Part shown: positions 2,858 to 35,060 of the stretch, piece by piece
Numbering within the stretch: position 1 is the stretch's first letter
Layout: each line of letters opens with the position of its first letter
Assembly: GCA_019096195.1 (NCBI GenBank)
Contig: JAGTXK010000179.1
Location: forward strand, 1-37,830
DNA length: 37,830 nucleotides
Direction of reading: 5' to 3'
Origin: Boletus sp. NGJ
Lineage: Eukaryota; Basidiomycota; Agaricomycetes; Boletales; Boletaceae
Made by a program: the position numbers and the translations under genes
The notes under the pieces: generated by a model
Database searches by the model: none
What the model saw: only the letters and a program-made list of their open reading frames with translations
Told to the model about the DNA's origin: nothing

Positions 2858-5800
2858 ATACCAGTCGACCTGCTGTACCATCTAAGTCATTGCGCAATAA
2901 TATGTTCTCTATTTTGAGCATTGATGAGACTGAAGACGAAAGTAAGGAATGCGTGAACCTCCCGGGCACCCCACCCATTAAACAAGTAACCATCATGCCG
3001 CGAAAAGTGAAATTCGTGCCGTCCGTAAAGCAAGATGACGGTCCGAACGATGCAGACACCATTCCTCGCAAACATCCCAAGGAAGCACGAAAGGAAAAGA
3101 TGTCCTCTCGTTCCTGGATAAACATGTTGGACCCCTGGTCCATATGTTGGATGAAGGTGCAAGTGGAGAACACGAATGTTGAGCGTAGCATCCACCACTT
3201 GAAGTCCTTCGTCCACGATAGCAGGACGATCGAAGTATCTCAGGATCTCGTGCAGGATCTTCAAAGGCTTTCCGACGAAGACGCGTACTGGGTCCTCCAC
3301 GACCTACAGCATGCACCGAAATTCTGGAAGGCATCCCTCCGATCCACAACACAAAACTTGTTGAAAATCCCCATGCAGGTGACCTTCACAAATCGACAGA
3401 CCGCCGACGTTAAGGCGCTAATCGACTCAGGTTGCACCGGCTCATCCATCCACGAGAAGTTTGTAGCCGAAAAGGGGGTAAAGACATATTCCCTCCCTCG
3501 CCCACTCACTGTCTACAATGCCGACGGCACGCCAAATGCCGGAGGCAAGGTGGAAAAGTTCGTGATCCTAGAACTCCAGGTAAACGACCACAAGGAACAA
3601 CTGGCCCTTGCTGTAACAAACCTTGGGCCCAACACCATATTCCTTGGACATGACTGGCTGAAGTCACACAACCCAGCCATCAACTGGAAGACGGGAAGAG
3701 TCTCCTTCCGATGTAAAGGAGACCATGTCACGAATAACGTGGACGAGGAGGAAGACGAGATGGATGTAGATTACATGCCGTCCCAAGGCGACCGATTATT
3801 TGAACTCGATGTAGTAGAATACATGCGAAATCGAAATGTCGCCACGGAAGTGGCCATTAAAGACTACATCCGGAAAAAGAAAAAGACCTTCGAGGAGGCC
3901 GCTCCGAAATACGTCCACGAATTCAAGGATGTCTTCAACAAAGAAAGCTTTGATGTGTTGCCCCCAAGACACCCTTGGGACCATGCCATTGAACTCCTCC
4001 CAGGAAACCACAAAGTAGATTGCAAAGTCTACCCCCTCAACCCCGGCGAGCAGAAAGAACTCGACTCCTTCCTCGAGGAGAACCTTAAATCCGGGAGGAT
4101 ATGACCCTTCAAATCACCCTTCGCATCGGCCTTCTTCTTCATCAAAAAGAAGGATGGACGCCTCCGCCCCATACAGGATTACCGCAAGTTGAACGCGGTA
4201 ACAAAACGCAATCACTACCCGCTCCCGCTCATAAGCGAACTGGTCAATAAACTCAAGTCAGCCAAATACTATACAAAGTTCGATGTGAGATGGGGGTACA
4301 ACAATGTACAGATGGCGGAAGGCGACAAGTGGAAGGCCGCCTTCCGGACCAATCGCAGGCTATTCGAGCCTCTCGTGATGTTCTTCGGACTCACCAATTC
4401 TTCAGCGACGTTCCAAATGATGATGAACGCGCTGTTCAGACATTTGGTGGACCGAGGTGTAGTGGTGGTCTATATAGACGACATCATGATATTCATGAGG
4501 ATGCTCAATGAACACCGCAAGGTAGTACGCGAAGTGCTACAAATCCTCCGCGATGCACACCTCTATCTGCGTCACGACAAATGTGACTTCGAAGTCCAAG
4601 AGACCGAGTTCCTCAGACTCATCGTTGCACAAGACAAGGTGAAGATGGATGAAAAGAAGGTGGAGGCCATCAAGAGCTGGCCTGTACCCACATCGAAGAA
4701 AACACTCTGAGGTTTCCTCGGCTTCCTCAACTTCTACCGACGATTTGTCAAGAATTTCGCAATGATAGCGTGCCCCCTCAATGTGCTCACGTCGGTGAAG
4801 AAAGACTTCGAATGGACGACAGCCTGCCAAGAGGCTTTTCAAACCCTCAAAGATACCATCTCCTCCGCCCCGGCGCTCACAATGCCCACCGATGCCGACC
4901 CCTATTGAATCGAAACCGACGGCTTGGGCATTGGCATCGGCGCCATGCTCTCTCAACGACATGACGGCATATGGCACCCCGTCGCATTCATCTCCCGTTC
5001 CCTCAATGACGCTGAGCGGAACTACCACGCCGCGGACCTCGAAATGCTAGCAATCATGTTCGCCCTCAACGAGTGGCAACAGTATCTCCTCGAGGCCGCC
5101 CACCCAATTGAGATCTGGACAGACCACAAGAACCTCGAGTTCTTCCGCAAACCCCAAGATCTCACTCGCCGCCAGGCCAGATGGCAGCAAATCCTACAAG
5201 AATACCATGTAGTGATCAGCCACCAGCCGGGCAAAACCAACCCCGTGGATCCTCTGTCCAGGAGGCCAGACTTTGAAAAGGGGGTGACATCCGATAACAC
5301 TGCACAGACCCTACTGCCAGACACCCTTTTTTCGCCCCCGCCATCGCCTACCTCCACGACAGTCTCCCTCAAAGCCATTGCACCAGCGAGCACGCTCTCA
5401 AGGATCACGAAACTACAATACAAACTTGAGCAGTTCGCCAAAGAAGGCCTGGAGAAGGAGAACTCCCCCTGGACCCGCAAAGACGGGCTTGTCCACTGGA
5501 AATTGCTCGTTTATGTGCCAAACAACGCGAAACTCAGAGAGGACATCCTTATTGCCAACCATGATCATCCGATCGCTGGCCATCCCGGTATCCGGCGCAC
5601 TCACGATTTGATCATGAGCGAGTATTACTGGCCCTCGCTTCAACGCGACGTGGAGACATATGTCAAAGGGTGTGACACATGCCAGAAGGTTAAAGCCAAG
5701 ACCTCAGCAATCAACACACCGCTCCACCCGAATGAGATCCCATCATCCCCCTGGGAGATCATCTCCGTCGACCTGATCGGCCCCCTTCCCCAATCAGATG

Positions 5801-7383: not shown

Positions 7384-7833
7384 AACCAACTCACATGACT
7401 AAGGGCTCATCTTCAGGGCAAGGATTAGGGCTATCAATGGCCCAGTAAGGGTTAGGACTAATACCTTTTGGTTCTTTTGCAAATGTCAAGTCTTTGCAAA
7501 ATAGTCAAATATTGGGACACTTTTTTGAGCCACTGTATGCCATTTTGTTTGAAAATGTTACATTGAGGGAGAGTTGGTTTGCGCACAGCATATGTATTTG
7601 TGACAAGGGTCTGAAATATGAACAAAATAAGAACTACTCATCTGAGCAGAAAATAAATGATGTACTTCAACAAGCTTCTGTGATGTATCTTATATGGCAG
7701 GATGCAATGGGTGTAACTTTTTCTTGTCAGCGCTTGGGGACTTCCATGCAAGTTTGCACTTTTGGACTGTAGTAATGAGGGTTTTGATGGCTTCTCTCTG
7801 TTTCTCCTTGATAGAATGCTTTTCAAATGTTAT

Positions 7834-11556: not shown

Positions 11557-13061
11557 CTATTTTTCTTCCCCTTGCGGCACAGCGTCAAACCTTGGGTGAT
11601 GGAACCCATGAGAGGTGTCTGCTTCAACTCCACAACAATAGAAGTGCACTTTCTCAGGTTTGTCCGTGCACATGAAATCCGATCAAAGAGCCTTTTCTGC
11701 CCAACCTGGAGTAGCATACAGCACCTTGATCTTTCGAAGAACACGTAAGGCTGGCCATGGTACGAGATCTCCAGTCTTGAGATTGTACATGTAAAACTCT
11801 CGGATGCTATCTGCCTGAGGAATGGAGACATTGTACACTCTTGTTCTGGATCCAATCTTCAGATTTGGAAACCTGGAATATGTCCTCGCCCACTCTACAA
11901 CCTTGACAATGGTGAGCTTGGCAAAGATGGCACGCTGGACCTCTTCATCCAGCATATCCTCAGCCTCAATTTTGGCAGAGTTGATACCAGAGCACATGGT
12001 TAGAAGTGCAAAGAGACACACGCCTACTTCGGAGAGCCCCATCAAGAGCTTCTTTTCGACCACAAGATCCTCAATGCTGCCAGTGGGCATGCCATATCTC
12101 CTTGCCAAGATGATGAGCTCGCTCGGATAGAGGTTGAGCACAAGCTTGATGAGGGTCTTCCATTGAGGGTCAGGATGGTGTTTTTTGACTTCTGCGATGA
12201 GTTGCTCCTCAGAAGTGATTGTGAAGGTGTAAAACATCAGGAGTGTATAGGCATGGAATGGACAATGGCTTATCCAGGCCGCAAACACAGCTATGTCGCT
12301 ATTGCAACAATTAGCAAAAAAGGTGCCATCTGGGACAATCTGCCTGCCCTGCCAGAGTAGATTGGTGGATGCCATAATTGTATCCTCAGAACCCATGCTA
12401 TAGGGTGCAAAGTCACCATTCTGGAACTGTCTGATCAACACCGGTCGGCCCACAACATCCTCTTGCAACAAGTTGGCATAGAGATCTTTGATGTCGGTGG
12501 TGCATATAGGTGAAAAATCGTGGTCGCCGACATGTCCATTTCTTGTAGTGACAATATTGAACTCGTGGTTGTGATGCCTCCTCTCTGCAGATGCCCTCAG
12601 TGTCAAAATGCCGTTCTCTGGCAATCCTAGTCCCAGAAAGTATGCAAACTGATGAGTGATGACTTGTATGTGGTCCCATGTCTTGTCTCTGCACTGAGCC
12701 AAGTTCTTCATCAAGTGAAGATCGGCAAACTCCTCAGCTGACATGCTGGGAGAGTGGTGCCATTTGTCGCTAGTGACATGAGGAAAGATATAAATTCGGT
12801 TCTAAGGAATATCAGTGTATGTTCTACCAAGGAAGGGATGTCCTTACATCCATTGCTCACACTGCGTGGTTCTGGATTAAGGAGGCCGATTGGGTAGCCA
12901 TAGATTTGTTGTGCACACTCTGAGCTGTGCAGATGAGGACAAGGGACAATGCGAACGGATGTCTTCTGGCAGGCTAAAAATTCGATGTTAATCACTATGC
13001 TGGCAAGTTTGCAAGCTACACACCTGGCTGAGAAATGGATATTTGAGCAATGTGCCTCCAT
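11557..13061 (-). pseudogene. Three-exon unknown gene with one nonsense codon
   Basis: Model: ATG at 13061; exon 1 13061-13022; intron 12974-13021; exon 2 12973-12861; intron 12802-12860 (GTGAGC...CCTTAG); exon 3 12801-11557. The exons sum to 1398 nt, a multiple of three, giving 465 codons before TAG at 11557-11559. Reading passes one TGA (11683-11685) followed by a convincing tail (SDFMCTDKPEKVHFYCCG, SHGFHHPRFDAVPQ), so that TGA is probably a former CGA. The N-terminus is Cys/His-rich (CPHLHSSEC) and might bind metal. The middle is helical with a hydrophobic stretch near FANCCNSDIAVFAAWI. I do not recognise the family. Intron 1 needs a weak GTGTAG donor, so the first exon is less sure. Transcription would be divergent from the DUF3830 gene at 13848. 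Confidence 0.6.
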
Positions 13062-13847: not shown

Positions 13848-14822
13848 ATGACATCCCCCATGCTCAAATTCTCTGTTTCTGGAACTGAACTCTCTTTCCG
13901 TGTAAAGCTTCTTTGGGAGGAAAATCCATCTGCCATGGACAATGTCTGCAGCAGCTTGCCGCTGAACACCATACTTCACCATGATGCTGTCTCTAGCAAC
14001 GCCTTTTCAATGCCCACCACAATCCTATCTTTATAGAGCGGAATTTCGGTTCCACACTACCTGGATGCTGTTTATCTCCACGCTCCTCGACAAGCCATTT
14101 GCATTTCCTACCAAAGTGATGTAGACCAGGTCAAAGTCAATCAGATCGGGCAGGTACTAGAGGTGGACCTCGAGAAGCTGGAGGCAATTGGGAGGCTTGT
14201 CTACTGGGAGTCCGTCGAAGTCTCGCCTGATAAGCTTGTTAAAGTTGAGGTCAGGTTGATCGGAGGCAGTATAGCTCTGCCCTTCATAAGAGAGCTGCCC
14301 CTCCTTGTGTCAGCGGCCCATTGGACCACCATGAGAAATAGGTTGGAGAGGAAAGGGGCGCAGGTTTGACTGGAGAAGCCTGAGGAGGTCCAGCTGGTGA
14401 GGTGGGGTGTAGAGGGCACATCTAGTGGGCCGGATTATGTGGCAGTGCTGCTCACGGATGCCGCCGATACTGTCTATGGCTTGCTCAAGTGTATGCAAGT
14501 AGTACCAACACCAATAACGAACGACATCATGCAAGAGACGGCCGCATTCTTAACTGGAGTGGACAACCTCTTCAAGACTTTAGGTCTTCCAAGCATTAAC
14601 TGGGCCAGAACCAAATATTCCACAGTGCTTGGCATGGTCAGCAACAATGCCCAGTTCATCGAACTGACAGGCGCTTGGCTGACCTATCTAAACCAAATGA
14701 TCTATTGGATGGAATTGATCCAACCTTCATACCTCAGCGAGCGTGGCACCAACTGTGATCCAATGAATGTCAAGGTGTTCCACAAGCTCATTAAATACAA
14801 TGAATCCACTTCTGACAACTAA
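13848..14822 (+). pseudogene. DUF3830/cucumopine-synthase-like gene, two stops
   Basis: A single frame of 324 codons runs from ATG 13848 to TAA 14820-14822 with no intron, interrupted by TAG 14034-14036 and TGA 14367-14369. Residues about 5-120 match the cyclophilin-like DUF3830 pattern: a beta start (LKFSVSGTELSFRVKLLWEE), then N-P-S-A and SSLPL, then VNQIGQVLEVDLEKLEAIGR and RLVYWE, where the bacterial family has a GQ...L..LGR.VLWEG tail. The second half is helical (TNDIMQETAAFLTGVDNLF, LTYLNQMIYWMELIQPSYLS). As far as I know, cucumopine and mikimopine synthases combine such a cyclophilin-like domain with a C-terminal helical bundle and are about this long. They condense histidine with 2-oxoglutarate without NAD(P)H. 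The substrate here is unknown. The TGA fits a lost CGA. Alternative: another DUF3830 enzyme. Confidence 0.6.
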
Positions 14823-15039
14823 ATCTGCTTCATCTCATAGCTTGTTGAAACTGTTTTTTGCGACCACAATATGCTTTCTCTATATTCTCTTCCTATGTAT
14901 GCATCGTCGCTTTACAAGTTCATCTTTTAAATTCAGTCGCTACAGATTTCTTCTCTTTATATTGGTCAATCTACATTGCCTTTGCGTGGGTGTTTACTAC
15001 CATTGATGTAGCAGGTCATCTATCTGCATTTGCTACTAT

Positions 15040-15540
15040 TCAAATGGAAGATACAACACTTTCTCCGCAGCTGCTAAGAGCCCCCCACGCCTCCAGAAAC
15101 GCACGGCATTTATCCATCGTTGCTTTCAAGATCTCGCCTCTTATTCTTACGCAATATTCATTGTGACAATATGAAATCAGCCCGATCAGATTTTCAGGGT
15201 GGATACTTTGGGTGCTGGTGGAGGTATGAGTGTCCAAGGTATCTGCAAGACTGCAAGGACTTTTGCTGAAGCCCTCCAATGCTGCTCCAGTATCCTCTTC
15301 TTCGTGCCATGTCAAAATGCGACCATCTGCAGCTTCTTCGGGCAGTGCAAGAGCATCACGGAGGGACCCTACAGCCTCCATAATATCCTCCTCTTTCTCA
15401 CAATCTGCAGCGTCAGAGGTTGAGAGTCATGGTTGAAGTTCTGCTGGCCTCTCCTCAATGGTGGCCATTCACACTCCAACAGTGGGGGTATCCGAACATT
15501 TGGCAGCGGCACTCGACTTGTCATGAGTGGCTTTAGACAT
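15040..15540 (-). pseudogene. Small unknown gene, two CGA-to-TGA-type stops
   Basis: From ATG 15540 (MSKATHDKSSAAAKCSDTP) a single 167-codon frame runs to TGA at 15040, interrupted by TGA at 15469-15471 and 15427-15429. It continues through ADCEKEEDIMEAVGSLRDAL, ILTWHEEEDTGAALEGF and MDKCRAFLEAWGAL. The charged, Ala/Glu-rich composition is clearly protein-like on both sides of each stop, and both can be restored by CGA (Arg). No family, membrane segment or signal peptide is seen; it is likely a soluble helical protein. It converges on the DUF3830 gene, with about 220 bp between the stop codons. Confidence 0.55.
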
Positions 15541-17140
15541 TGACACGGTGAGGTGGGGAAGGTGACTGAGAGCACCCTGAAAGCTTGTCTGGGCAGATAA
15601 ATCTGCCTTGACCACTAGATATAACTACACTGGGATCAGCGGTTAGTTTCGAGAGACTTGTGTGACACCTACAGAATGTAGGTTCTGAAGGAACCAATAG
15701 GTCACTGAAAACCCAAAGAGCCAGCATAGCTGGCAGATGGATGGCATAGGGGAGGTGGCAGATCCAGCAGAGGTGCGCGCACAGGATGGCAGGATGCATG
15801 GCAGGCAATGGCCAGCCGAGTTGATCTATGAACCAATCTAAGTCGTGACGGTGATTCGGCTGCTGCCGTGACTTCATGGGCAAGTGGAGCCGGGGTGTCG
15901 GCTCTGTCTGGGGTCATTAAGGGGCATGAAGCATGTTTCATTACAGTCACGCAATTATGCAGCAGTTTCTGACACACACGACAAAAGGGCTTCTCCAGAT
16001 TGGAAGCTCACCGGTTTGTAGCATGCGGCAATAAAGCTGCCCTGGCGGAAATACCCATGGCTTGACTCGTTTTGGAGAAAGAGCCCCCGCATGCTTGCAT
16101 AGCCTCAGCTATTGAGGGGAAGTAGATAAGAGATTTTGTGCGGCTGTCAGACAGCCTCATCATGCTGATTTGATGCCAGGCAGAGTTATTACGCCGGGTG
16201 TGAACCACCTTACCCCTTCCTGATTGTGCTTCTCACACGTATTTCTCATATCCATGGCACAACACATGGACCTTACAGACAGCGTCTTGCTCACATGGTC
16301 ATGAGCATGCGTACGCTATCAAGGGCTGGGAGAATACATGGCAATCTGTCACAACCACACCAACAGGAGAACTAGCCATTGCACGCTGAGCAGCGAACAG
16401 GATTTCCCGCTCTCACCATGTCAATGTCGAGTACATCTATCAATGCCAGAATCATGATGGGCCTTTAGTACTCTCAGTGAGCCATGGAATGCGAGCTGAC
16501 GAGCGAGAAGAGGCAATGGGATGGGAGAGTGAAAGGGAGGATGTCGTCTCTTTAAACCCAAGCCAGCAACCGTGGTTCTTGTCACACAGCACATCGATGA
16601 CTTGTTTATTGAGCGATCGGGTGGCTACACTACGCTTTTCAGTACATCCTGTATGCCACACGTTCAAAATTGAAATCCTCGTGCATTCCACAGCTTGGCA
16701 ATTGCACCCTCTGGCCTGTCTTCAGACAGTTCGAAGACGTAAATGAAAAATGATCATTGTCTCTGTGGGTTGAAATTCACACATGGTGTTGACACACCGG
16801 AACGCCTGCCGAAACATCCCTCAAAAATTCCAACTTCCACTTGTTAGCCCAAATGCATGGGCATTCCCGGCCTATCAAAATCTTTACACGTGCCAAAATC
16901 ACCTGACCTCTGACAGATATTCAAAAGCCCTTTGCGCGTTCCAGAAGCATTTTGATGCTTCAATGATGTCAAAACCTTCCTTATCAATCAATCAGAAAAG
17001 ATAGAATTCCAGCAAATGGTCTCCCCAAAAAGCTCCATGACATCAGCGTTGGTGACCACATGATGTAACGACCTTTTTGGTCAGCTCAGATTGACAAACA
17101 TTCATTTGAAGCACGTTGGTCCCCAAAATCACCAATCCCG
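15541..17140. other. Intergenic region, no supported gene
   Basis: Open frames on both strands (15533-15883 minus, 15702-15977 minus, 16452-16691 minus, 16477-16746 plus) are short and not protein-like. No repeat family, tRNA or transposon end was recognised. Confidence 0.4.
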
Positions 17141-17146
17141 TTAGAT

Positions 17147-17154
17147 TATATAAA
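17147..17154 (+). promoter_or_regulatory. TATA box of the opine-dehydrogenase-like gene
   Basis: TATATAAA lies 95-102 bp upstream of the proposed ATG at 17249. The interval is pyrimidine-rich with TTTTCCTCT, common before fungal transcription starts. Confidence 0.5.
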
Positions 17155-17248
17155 TGAAGAAGCTGTAGCTGTATGTTCCTTTTCCTCTAGCACTCCAATT
17201 TCCATCATTTCGTGCCAAACACAGCCTACCAGTATACTACTTGCCACT

Positions 17249-18452
17249 ATGGTAACGTCTCGTCTCGCCTATTAGCTTCCTTATTAAAACTCATGCACCC
17301 CAGTCAGACAAACTCTTCGTTGGCATCCTTGGCGCCAGCCATGCTGCCACAGTGATCACTGCCAATCTCAAAGAGAAGGGTATCGAACTGGTTATGTGGG
17401 CTCCCCCTGACCATCCAGGAGCAATTCCTATGATAAATCAGAATTAAGGGATACTGAGAGCTAAAGGAGCAGTCAATGGCTTGTACTTGTTTGATATGAC
17501 TCACAACCTCTGCGATGTCGTAGAATCATGCCGTTTCATTATCATGACTATACGTTCTGATGCCCATGAAGCCTATGTCGCCGAACTCGCAAAATATAAC
17601 AACAAACTCCTTGACACTGATCTTTTCATGATCTGCAGCCAAGGCTTCACAATTATCTATGAGGAATGCCTGAAGGTGAAATGCATCTTCGAGAGCAACA
17701 CTTTCCCCGCAGCCTCCAAACTCGATGGCCTTGCCATTGTCGATATTAAGAAGATGAAGACCAACTTTCAGGTTTCTTGCTTCCCACTGTGCAATGGTGG
17801 AGCTGATCTCCCGGCGGATGCCAAACCAATCCTCGATCGGGTTTTTCATGCCATGCTCAGCCCCTGCACTCCACTTGAAATCGCCTTGGGTTCCACAGTT
17901 GTCACTCATGTGGTCACAGCGTTACTCAATATGGGGTGCCTCGAAGATACCGTCAACTCCCTCACTTCCCTCACTCGCTCATTCCACTCTATGCTTCAGG
18001 CGTGCAAGGCTGCAGATCCGCTTCCATTCTTCTACAGCAAGGGCATGAACAACCCTGTTTGCAATGCCCAGTTGGCATTCGGTGCTGAATGCTTGAAGAT
18101 TGGAGAGATGTGCAGGTTACAGCTCATTGACCTGCTTACAGACTGTAATAGCGAGCATGGCACCAGCTATGCCAACCTCTGCGAATACAGCCTTGCACCC
18201 AAGCCCCACAATGTTCAAAAGGCTACACCCCAGGACATTAAACATTGCTATTATGCAGAGGAGCTCTTGCTGATGGTTTTCATCCACTCCCTTGCCAAGA
18301 TCCTCAGTATCGACTCGCCAGTCATTACCGGCACCATCCACTTCTATCAGGCCGCTCTCCAAACCGATGCCTTCACGTTTAACCAAAATTTGGACAGTCT
18401 CCAAGTTGGACGCGAGGATCTTGTTCACTTTGGTGCCAAGTTCCCTGCTTGA
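17249..18452 (+). pseudogene. Octopine/nopaline-dehydrogenase-like gene, one stop
   Basis: Model: ATG 17249-17251, a phase-0 intron 17252-17303 (GTAACG...CCCCAG) directly after the start codon, then exon 2 17304-18452. The spliced product starts MSDKLFVGILGASHAATVI, a Rossmann nucleotide-binding glycine motif, followed by VVESCRFIIMTIRSDAHEAY in the NAD(P)-binding domain. The C-terminal half carries the opine-dehydrogenase helical domain, including LPFFYSKGMN and PQDIKHCYYAEELLLMVFIH followed by SLAKILSIDSPVI, the usual position of the (R/H)YLxEDVPYGLVP-type segment. Total 383 codons including the stop, normal for the family. One in-frame TAA (17445-17447) lies in a loop after PPDHPGAIPMINQN, so this copy is interrupted. 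Such enzymes reductively condense an amino acid with a 2-oxoacid. Substrates cannot be read from sequence. The UTR and splice sites look functional otherwise. Confidence 0.8.
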
Positions 18453-22980: not shown

Positions 22981-23426
22981 AATGCATAACCAACTTGTAC
23001 ACCTCTACTCCAGGGTTATCAACTCCTGAATGATATAGTTCCTGTTAATCTGGAAGTTTAAATACACTTCCAGACAGTGATTGACTTATTACTACAGTGG
23101 CTCAAAAAACTGTCCACATATTTGGTCATTGTTCACTAAACACATTATTCCTCAATAACCCCTAATCCTTACCCTAACATATAGGTGTATGAAATAAAGC
23201 ACTAATCCTTGGCCTTCTATCCATCAAGGTTTTAAGACATATGAATAAGAATTGATGAACTGGCAGCCATTTCAAAACAATGACTCATTCAGATAGTTTT
23301 TTGACTCTACGTTTTGATTACATATATTGGACCCTAGCATGCTGTAATATGATTACATACATTTGGTATGGCTTCTATTATGTCATTATTATGTAACTGA
23401 GTGTCAGACAACATATATAAACCCCA

Positions 23427-33918: not shown

Positions 33919-34725
33919 CTACTGCAAGTTCCCTGCCTCCATACCCAGGTGTTTCGCAATGGCCCTGATCTCGACAGATAGCGATGAGATCTTCAGAATG
34001 TGTGGTTTGGAGCTGAGCGAGTTAGCTTCATAAGAGATGTCTGTGCTCAGGGTGCTCAGTGCAAATCTGATGGATGCTGTGGGCTTTCCAGCAAGTAAGT
34101 CCTGCCACCTCTTAGCATAGGCCTCTAAATGAGCCAAGACGATGCCCATGTTGATGTGGGCTTTATACTCCTCCATCACTCCTTGTATCACCTGCTCCCC
34201 TACCTCTTCTCCAACACCGGCCAAGAATATGCAAAGGTCCTGACCAAGGCAATAGTCATGGGTCTCCAACTGATCCTCGATCAAACTTTCCACCTCCAAA
34301 ATGTGAGTGTCCATAATGCCAACAAGCCTGGTTAGTTTCTCCATGATTGCACTGCCTGCAGAATTGCATTTCTGCTCCAAAAGATCAACTGCCTTGCAGA
34401 AGTGTGCACCCACCTCCTTCAATGCAGCTTCACTAGGCCTCTCATCCTCCACAAGGCTCCAAATAAGCTTGATGGTGATCGAGCTGCAATGGAACCACTC
34501 TCTTAGCAGGTCGTGGCATGGAGTCTGGAGCGACTTGCAGCTGCTCGAGAGAGTGAAGGCTGGAGTGAACCCCTTGCTGCTGATGCTATGGAGTGTCCAG
34601 CTCCAACGAAGAGTATCAAGGTCACCATGGAGATGCGCGATGCCAGTCAGAGCAGGGAAAAGATTGGTGAGGCTCTGAGGTTGGTTTGTCAGATACACAT
34701 AGATCATATGATTGTAACTTACCAT
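33919..34725 (-). CDS. Unknown helical protein, two-exon model
   Basis: Start ATG 34723-34725 is followed at once by a 48-bp intron 34675-34722 (GTAAGT...CCTCAG). Exon 2 is 34674-33919. Spliced, it is 252 residues beginning MSLTNLFPALTGIAHLHGDL, then LREWFHCSSITIKLIWSLVE, EALKEVGAHFCKAVDLL-type helices and LGQDLCIFLAGVGEEVGEQV. The intron length is a multiple of three, so the unspliced frame is open too. The sequence is strongly alpha-helical, acidic and soluble, with no motif I can name. It is one of the few frames in the window with no internal stop. The ATG-then-intron layout is the same as in the opine-dehydrogenase-like gene. Confidence 0.55.
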   Translation of the reverse strand: MVSYNHMIYVYLTNQPQSLTNLFPALTGIAHLHGDLDTLRWSWTLHSISSKGFTPAFTLSSSCKSLQTPCHDLLREWFHCSSITIKLIWSLVEDERPSEAALKEVGAHFCKAVDLLEQKCNSAGSAIMEKLTRLVGIMDTHILEVESLIEDQLETHDYCLGQDLCIFLAGVGEEVGEQVIQGVMEEYKAHINMGIVLAHLEAYAKRWQDLLAGKPTASIRFALSTLSTDISYEANSLSSKPHILKISSLSVEIRAIAKHLGMEAGNLQ

Positions 34726-35060
34726 TATGCTTGTGGATGGGGGGAGTTCATATCAAGTGGCTTTGTCAATGGGGGTAAAGAGAGGCACCTTATGAGTACT
34801 TATGGAATGTGTGAGGATGACATGGCAGCAGAGATTAATGGCCCCGAGCTAGCGGGTTGATGGTGGCATCATGGATACCCAAAAGATGCTTCCAGGCCAT
34901 CATTTGATTGAATAATCAAAAATATTGAGAAAAAGAACTGCGTTTTTTTGATGATTACTATCTACTTACATCAATTGTCTGAGCTCATCATGTATCCTAT
35001 CTCACTAAATTTGTGAAAGAGTCAACCCAACGCCTCCCACAATTCATACTGATGAACATA
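34726..35060. other. Intergenic
   Basis: No gene or repeat recognised. It would contain the promoter of the 33919-34725 gene. Confidence 0.4.

Follow-up and report, generated by a model that had tools for sequence, protein, structure and literature searches.

A group of three opine-synthase-like genes, at least two of them broken, in a fungal genome: a possible remnant of a Ti/Ri-type opine cassette

Introduction

The transferred DNAs (T-DNAs) of tumour-inducing (Ti) and root-inducing (Ri) plasmids are built of separate enzymes, each making its own opine; the products of one of these, agrocinopine synthase (Acs), are sugar phosphodiesters. T-DNA opine genes must function in eukaryotic cells. 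Here we describe three opine-type genes of three families that lie in one place, within 6.8 kb (11.7–18.5 kb), on a fungal contig of 37,830 bases (C34; the whole contig is called the window below) from an assembly of 32.8 Mb in 141 contigs. They are an Acs-like gene (gene 1), a mikimopine/cucumopine-synthase-like (Mis/Cus-like) gene (gene 2) and a nopaline-type dehydrogenase gene (gene 3), at least two of them broken, and the same genome holds a second grouped set.

Among the cellular T-DNAs (cT-DNAs) of plants, those with opine genes only are reportedly the commonest (PMC12568777). One accepted plant cT-DNA, CaTA of Camellia, carries acs-susL-rolB in about 5.3 kb, with 31% and 37% identity to Agrobacterium and with stops (PMC9763466). 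CaTA and the window are alike in that a small group of acs and another opine-synthase gene, in CaTA succinamopine synthase, lies in a eukaryotic genome, divergent and with premature stops. They differ in that CaTA has a plant host, a rolB piece, terminal repeats and a known insert-free relative, whereas the window is fungal and has a nopaline-type dehydrogenase instead of rolB; CaTA-like terminal repeats were not found in the window. Opine-type enzymes had already been reported from fungi one by one: Chen and Otten (2017) listed such genes singly, as patchy and divergent, and their paper states that no bona fide cT-DNA was known from hosts other than plants and that finding such genes in a group would speak for transfer (PMC5606197). 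A 2025 review adds homologues of the Camellia cT-DNA genes in ascomycetes and basidiomycetes (PMC12568777). The window differs from the single fungal genes of PMC5606197 in having three grouped, and we came across no fungal trio of this kind in the literature searched, most subscription papers being outside the reach of the search.

Results and discussion

Gene 3 is a relic of the octopine/nopaline dehydrogenase family

The first-pass annotation had proposed an octopine/nopaline-dehydrogenase-like gene at 17249–18452 (plus strand), and this gene proved real and decayed. It consists of a Rossmann part and the octopine/nopaline dehydrogenase domain PF02317, which scored 48.9 bits (expect value, E, 9e-13; cut-off 30), and a profile search of the genome matched PF02317 in gene 3 only. 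Furthermore, nopaline-type plasmid dehydrogenases were 36–40% identical to it over 97–98%, and the window sequence keeps 76 of the 113 columns that are invariant in seven relatives. The frame is interrupted by one stop, at 17445, and the NAD(P) motif GxGxxG is not intact, reading GASHAA against GSGHAG in C58 nopaline synthase, with two of the three glycines altered. Because the NAD-binding motif is altered and the frame interrupted, gene 3, as its sequence stands, is a relic and not a working member of the family. Directly after its ATG lies a probable 52-base intron (17252–17303, plus strand, GTAACG...CCCCAG), predicted from the genomic sequence; splicing out this GT..AG stretch would yield MSDKLFVGILG. 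The relative in Butyriboletus roseoflavus is 87% identical (about 35 differences in 274); its model comprises 274 aa, the first third is missing, and the Butyriboletus gene is perhaps also broken there.

Relatives of gene 3 at E 1e-3 were found in 106 plasmid records, all from Rhizobiaceae genera except one Paraburkholderia. Close relatives (E 1e-20) were present in two of 394 genomes of Phyllobacterium's family and in none of 398 genomes drawn from its phylum, where only two weak partial matches (1e-12) were seen. Searches of PDB sequences with genes 2 and 3 gave one chance match and nothing else. A protein from a 3149-base ENA contig, P0007, is 43% identical to the window dehydrogenase and up to 55% identical to plasmid nopaline-type dehydrogenases; no relative of it was found in the viral contigs searched.

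Gene 2 is a fused Mis/Cus-like gene without sign of selection

Gene 2 (13848–14822, plus strand, the same strand as gene 3) is one 324-residue frame interrupted by stops at 14034 and 14367. The stops bear out its decay, and its earlier reading as a DUF3830/cyclophilin-like relative of cucumopine synthase was borne out by adjacent gene pairs of bacteria and by its Butyriboletus relative P0001, Pfam alone being insufficient. Whereas the profile search suggested with that annotation was significant for PF02317 in gene 3, it stayed below cut-off for both domains of gene 2. DUF3830 scored 15.3 bits for the first piece and 13.2 for the whole (cut-off 26), and a DUF3830 profile search of the genome did not retrieve gene 2; Cucumopine_C had no Pfam match in it and 13.7 bits (cut-off 27) in P0001, which is 81% identical to gene 2 (E 2.6e-158). 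NCBIfam and PDB sequence searches gave nothing useful for gene 2.

When P0001 was compared with 72,556 plasmid records by tblastn, five records matched at E ≤ 10, with E from 5e-35 to 2e-32. These records come from Sinorhizobium, Rhizobium and Sodalis, and each match spans a DUF3830 gene and an adjacent C-terminal-bundle gene annotated as 'hypothetical protein'; such a C-part, that of pRi1724, scores 89 bits for Cucumopine_C. The window protein is 36–37% identical to the plasmid N-parts and 29–31% identical to the C-parts. It thus has an N-terminal DUF3830/cyclophilin-like domain (33–41% to bacterial N-parts) followed by a C-terminal Cucumopine_C helical bundle, in the order N then C. Plasmid pRi1724 also encodes a presumed T-DNA mikimopine synthase, likewise fused, with which the window protein shares 27% identity. 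We matched this fused gene to the name mis, and the adjacent split pair to riorf22/23, from PMC5606197 and PMC4242671, the record itself saying 'hypothetical' and 'DUF3830'. Gene 2 resembles the pRi1724 genes in its two domains, their order and its tree branch, and is fused as in mis; it differs in sequence (27–37% identity) and in being broken and fungal.

Gene 2 retains 42 of the 79 columns invariant in 17 Mis-type rows, a count that omitted five rows (A. vitis, C101a, C101b, C103 and L031). As a yardstick for unconstrained change we used its 3' flank (14888–15226, plus strand), which is coding in the Butyriboletus model P0001 and in which 101 of 113 residues are alike. Gene 2 differed from Butyriboletus at 48 of 301 ungapped residues and the flank, read in frame, at 12 of 113 (Fisher p 0.21; the rates and p-values are all rough). 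Because change between the species is no less in gene 2 than in its 3' flank, gene 2 shows no sign of selection.

A model of P0001 built from a 19-row alignment (mean predicted local distance difference test, pLDDT, 60.7; helices at 148–277) gave as best Foldseek matches McbB (3x27; E 2.7e-9) and the Pictet-Spenglerase KslB (9ns6; E 4.3e-5), which both bind tryptophan according to their titles, and more weakly cyclophilin-like proteins. The template modelling scores were low (0.25–0.39) and the McbB superposition poor, with a root-mean-square deviation near 20; the comparison supports a McbB/KslB-type fold for the predicted structure without settling it. KslB carries its DUF3830-type domain at the chain end, unlike gene 2. 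Judging by its tree branch, gene 2, now broken, would have used histidine and 2-oxoglutarate in a Pictet-Spengler reaction.

Since the proteins most like those of genes 2 and 3 come from the bolete Butyriboletus roseoflavus, the sole ground that we have, the host is probably bolete-like. Orthologues of this pair had been expected to be neighbours in related fungi: for both Butyriboletus orthologues the listed contig has a length of 2576528 bases, and it is probably one and the same contig, on which their adjacency was not visible. The small minus-strand gene formerly placed between genes 2 and 3 was dropped, the open reading frame (ORF) at 15043–15426 having no Pfam match at E 1.

Gene 1 is an Acs-like gene that had been overlooked

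A third opine-type gene, outside the region of the first-pass annotation and overlooked there, lies at 11683–12744 on the minus strand. It encodes 353 aa from its ATG, inside a 372-codon open stretch (11686–12801, minus strand). In tblastn, Acs or Acs-like proteins matched it in 129 of the 72,556 plasmid records, from Agrobacterium, Rhizobium, Neorhizobium and Sinorhizobium, all Rhizobiaceae. C58 agrocinopine synthase is 27% identical over 374 columns (E 9e-26), the similarity spanning most of Ti/Ri Acs, and 34 columns are invariant in an alignment of seven sequences. Faint Acs similarity runs past the stop of gene 1, to about 11572, and its C-terminus is probably cut short. At E 1, Pfam found nothing in gene 1, GDPD included; two C58 proteins are themselves near the GDPD threshold (24.6 and 31.2 bits against 23.6). 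Because there is no Pfam GDPD match in the window, we label the predicted protein Acs-like rather than Acs. In the Acs tree, whose C103 row was read partly in a wrong frame and is disregarded, gene 1 sits on long branches, too long for use, and a fold predicted from its sequence alone gave no usable structure (mean pLDDT 32.4). With either of two queries, the window and contig C103 were the only parts of the genome in which Acs-like sequence was found, each at one place.

The open frames of these genes exceed chance: frames with at most one stop made up 6 of 4354 sampled 387-codon frames between 7 and 23.4 kb, the opine genes themselves being counted in.

A second damaged trio lies in the same genome

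On contig C103, a second damaged trio was found within 10 kb (230949–240192). It comprises an Acs-like gene in two frames (230.9–232.2 kb; 32.9% identity with plasmid proteins of Rhizobium, E 6e-25), an octopine/nopaline-dehydrogenase-like fragment (233.4–234.0 kb; top E 1e-7) and a Pictet-Spenglerase-like gene whose domains are swapped and which an insertion seems to have split (238.4–240.2 kb). For the dehydrogenase-like fragment, the eight matches listed of 143 were all octopine/nopaline-dehydrogenase proteins except one unannotated record, and Pfam recognized only a generic nucleotide-binding fold. Two further Pictet-Spenglerase-like genes, with the C-part before the N-part, lie on contig C101 (430227–431233, plus strand; 438142–439142, minus strand), and neither an Acs nor a dehydrogenase match was found in the 40 kb read there. 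The C101 domain order is that of PDB entries 9ns6 and 9uwa, and the DUF3830-type domain stands at the chain end in the C103 and C101 genes as it does in KslB. The swapped order had been considered as a mark of a fungal family, an idea that was dropped, KslB being titled bacterial.

In a Mis/Cus tree of 24 rows, for which the program warned of long branches, the window and Butyriboletus sequences fell with pRi1724 mis and 17 bacterial rows, and this set was split with 100/100 support from a group of the A. vitis plasmid protein and the C101/C103 genes. Because the C103 and C101 genes fall outside the branch of gene 2, neither the window group nor the C103 group, to judge from the tree, is a recent copy of the other.

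Relatives of the window genes in bacteria

The dehydrogenase tree had 17 rows, with the Butyriboletus protein as its one fungal dehydrogenase besides the window. With 100/100 support, both grouped with nopaline and vitopine-type synthases, a Sinorhizobium meliloti plasmid enzyme and P0007; octopine synthase, a pAt enzyme and the five remaining dehydrogenases lay outside. We presume the pTiS4 enzyme to be vitopine-type, its record assigning it to the octopine/nopaline dehydrogenase family. A narrower group excluding the vitopine type was neither shown nor rejected (approximately unbiased test, p-AU 0.30).

A scan of one prokaryote genome per species (84,980 species) with two peptide patterns, which gives a lower bound, found the Mis-type pair at at least 14 loci in 13 genomes. 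The Mis halves were separate adjacent ORFs at 13 of the 14 loci, L031 being unreadable that way, and such split pairs occur in Paraburkholderia, Sodalis, Pseudomonas and others. No nopaline-type dehydrogenase was found in the fetched flanks of these loci or in three plasmid stretches. Seventeen genomes or records were checked whole, 16 with a Mis-type pair and one chosen for its dehydrogenase, two further plasmid pair records being outside this check. The only strong dehydrogenase match among them was in the record chosen for that enzyme, the S. meliloti M270 plasmid accessoryB. Like the window, this opine-type plasmid has acs and a dehydrogenase of the nopaline type, whose identity to gene 3 (39.5%) is the highest among the plasmid dehydrogenases; nopaline-transport genes accompany the two in the same stretch (92–135 kb). 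It differs in that the two genes are 21 kb apart, and it is absent from the list of Mis-like matches. A bacterial donor bearing genes 2 and 3 together was sought, and none was found in the loci or genomes checked.

Origin of the group

We lean towards reading 11.7–18.5 kb as the decayed remnant of a three-gene Ti/Ri-type opine cassette from a Rhizobiaceae-like donor, because T-DNAs are likewise built of self-sufficient opine makers, opine-only cT-DNAs are reported as common in plants, and CaTA is alike in being small, divergent and broken. Three T-DNA-type genes stand within 6.8 kb of a eukaryotic genome, a grouping that would point to ancient transfer of bacterial DNA into a fungus. The relatives of the three genes are mainly on Rhizobiaceae opine plasmids, one of which, in S. 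meliloti, bears acs and the dehydrogenase together; gene 3 falls in the nopaline/vitopine branch; the domain order and fusion of gene 2 match those of the presumed T-DNA mis, while 13 of 14 prokaryote loci have the halves apart; and both Acs-like places in the genome are grouped with a dehydrogenase and a Pictet-Spenglerase-type sequence. The cassette would have reached an ancestral bolete in a single piece, by T-DNA transfer or a similar route, before the split from Butyriboletus. When intact, the Acs-like enzyme would join sugars through phosphate, the Mis/Cus-like enzyme would close a histidine-like amine with 2-oxoglutarate by a Pictet-Spengler reaction that needs no cofactor, and the Nos-like enzyme would use NAD(P)H to couple an amino acid reductively with a 2-oxoacid. 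If the activity of its branch was kept, each alone would be a self-sufficient maker of a different opine; any benefit that these may have brought would lie in the past. The first-pass annotation was right that two opine-synthase families of unrelated chemistry adjoin in a fungus. It had further suggested an undescribed, decayed amino-acid/2-oxoacid pathway; the decay stands, and a cassette of the opine-plasmid type seems more apt than one pathway, because Acs products are sugar phosphodiesters, and the three enzymes seem to make opines in parallel and not in successive steps.

Several observations weigh against a cassette origin. No T-DNA border-like site in the window rose above chance level; such a site, of 25 bases, may not outlast divergence on this scale. 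RolB-family proteins (pTiC58, pRi1724), ornithine cyclodeaminase, iaaH, iaaM and ipt had no window match at E 1e-3, nor had a pTiC58 hypothetical protein (3528–5099); the best of these unmatched queries was a RolB-family protein (E 0.087), and RolB was not found in the genome by a search that had no positive control. Apart from the opine genes, all that matched the fetched plasmid stretches at E 1e-3 was the window's mariner-like transposase, which matched a transposase. The window genes are merely about 23–41% identical to their T-DNA-type or plasmid relatives. Kinship of gene 2 with mis and with the split pairs was not separated (81/40), gene 2 being no closer to the T-DNA mis, and fusion is not special to T-DNA, because the A. 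vitis plasmid protein beside hutH, from the other branch, is fused as well. None of the 16 genomes or records with a Mis-type pair, in which acs was not searched, had a strong nopaline-type dehydrogenase (two weak partial matches, 1e-8). The probable intron argues for long eukaryotic residence, and a nested fungal clade is possible, fungal homologues having been reported (PMC5606197); word-limited protein searches returned no named fungal protein beyond Butyriboletus, which is weak evidence. These searches gather candidates by short exact words, and a single-sequence run missed even nopaline synthases (the last run scored 7998 candidates). With border sites at chance level, the kinship of gene 2 at 81/40 and the Acs-like protein on long branches, we would not class the locus as a cT-DNA on its sequence.

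The same intron, together with the presence of two different trios in one genome and of a mis homologue in Eutypa lata (PMC4242671), would suit a native fungal opine cluster, a less probable though serious alternative. Here Acs-like, dehydrogenase and Pictet-Spenglerase genes would have been long kept, inherited or passed among fungi, the window and C103 groups would be dead copies, and T-DNA opine genes would be cousins or even descendants of eukaryotic clusters. Fungi would then own opine clusters, which bears on the source of T-DNA opine genes. However, gene 2 is in a different branch from the C103/C101 genes (100/100), and gene 3 lies inside the plasmid nopaline/vitopine branch, where Butyriboletus supplies the tree's sole other fungal dehydrogenase; that the first two protein searches gave one relative each counts weakly against native clusters, the same search having missed nopaline synthases. 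We consider it unlikely that single bacterial genes were gained separately, for example a split pair fused in the fungus, and were later brought together. Gene 2 resembles the split pair no less closely than it does the T-DNA mis, and the spread of split pairs over Paraburkholderia, Sodalis, Pseudomonas and others would fit such gains, but rare families are grouped twice in 32.8 Mb (about 3e-6 per acs site, a rough figure that assumes random placement and uses gene counts chosen post hoc), and, among the plasmid records, two of the three families hardly occur outside Rhizobiaceae. The contig is a short one of 37,830 bases and its genes are broken, as they might be if the frames were not genes or the contig not fungal; yet chance similarity or contamination is hardly credible in view of tblastn E values of 1e-19 to 1e-82 to T-DNA-type proteins over most of each gene, of Ty3/gypsy-like and mariner-like ORFs recognized by eye on the contig, and of the Butyriboletus orthologues, which are listed on a 2.58-Mb contig. 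Under the cassette reading, we raise tentatively that natural transformation of the fungus by an Agrobacterium-like bacterium took place on more than one occasion, the window and C103 trios being independent opine-only T-DNA-type insertions, now dead; within the literature searched, this would be the first description of grouped T-DNA-type genes from a non-plant host.

Other features of the window

Mobile elements flank the opine genes on both sides: the first 7 kb hold Ty3/gypsy-like ORFs, and a transposase of mariner-like type lies at 23.4–24.7 kb (both recognized by eye). In a profile scan of 76 of the 100 ORFs of at least 75 codons beyond 7 kb, with the Ty3/gypsy- and mariner-like ORFs omitted, the only families that stood out were DDE_3, DUF1990 and RVT_2 (individual ORFs not named). 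Two longer window ORFs had no convincing relative among the plasmids. A 277-codon open stretch (33922–34752, minus strand) had weak similarity to YicC endoribonuclease (Pfam E 0.04, tblastn 0.007). In addition, a pair of 43-base inverted repeats (7495–7537 and 23093–23135; 81% complementary, 15.6 kb apart) brackets the opine genes; the insertion of the C103 gene is, as judged by eye, bordered by similar sequence, and the repeats are probably the ends of mariner-like elements.

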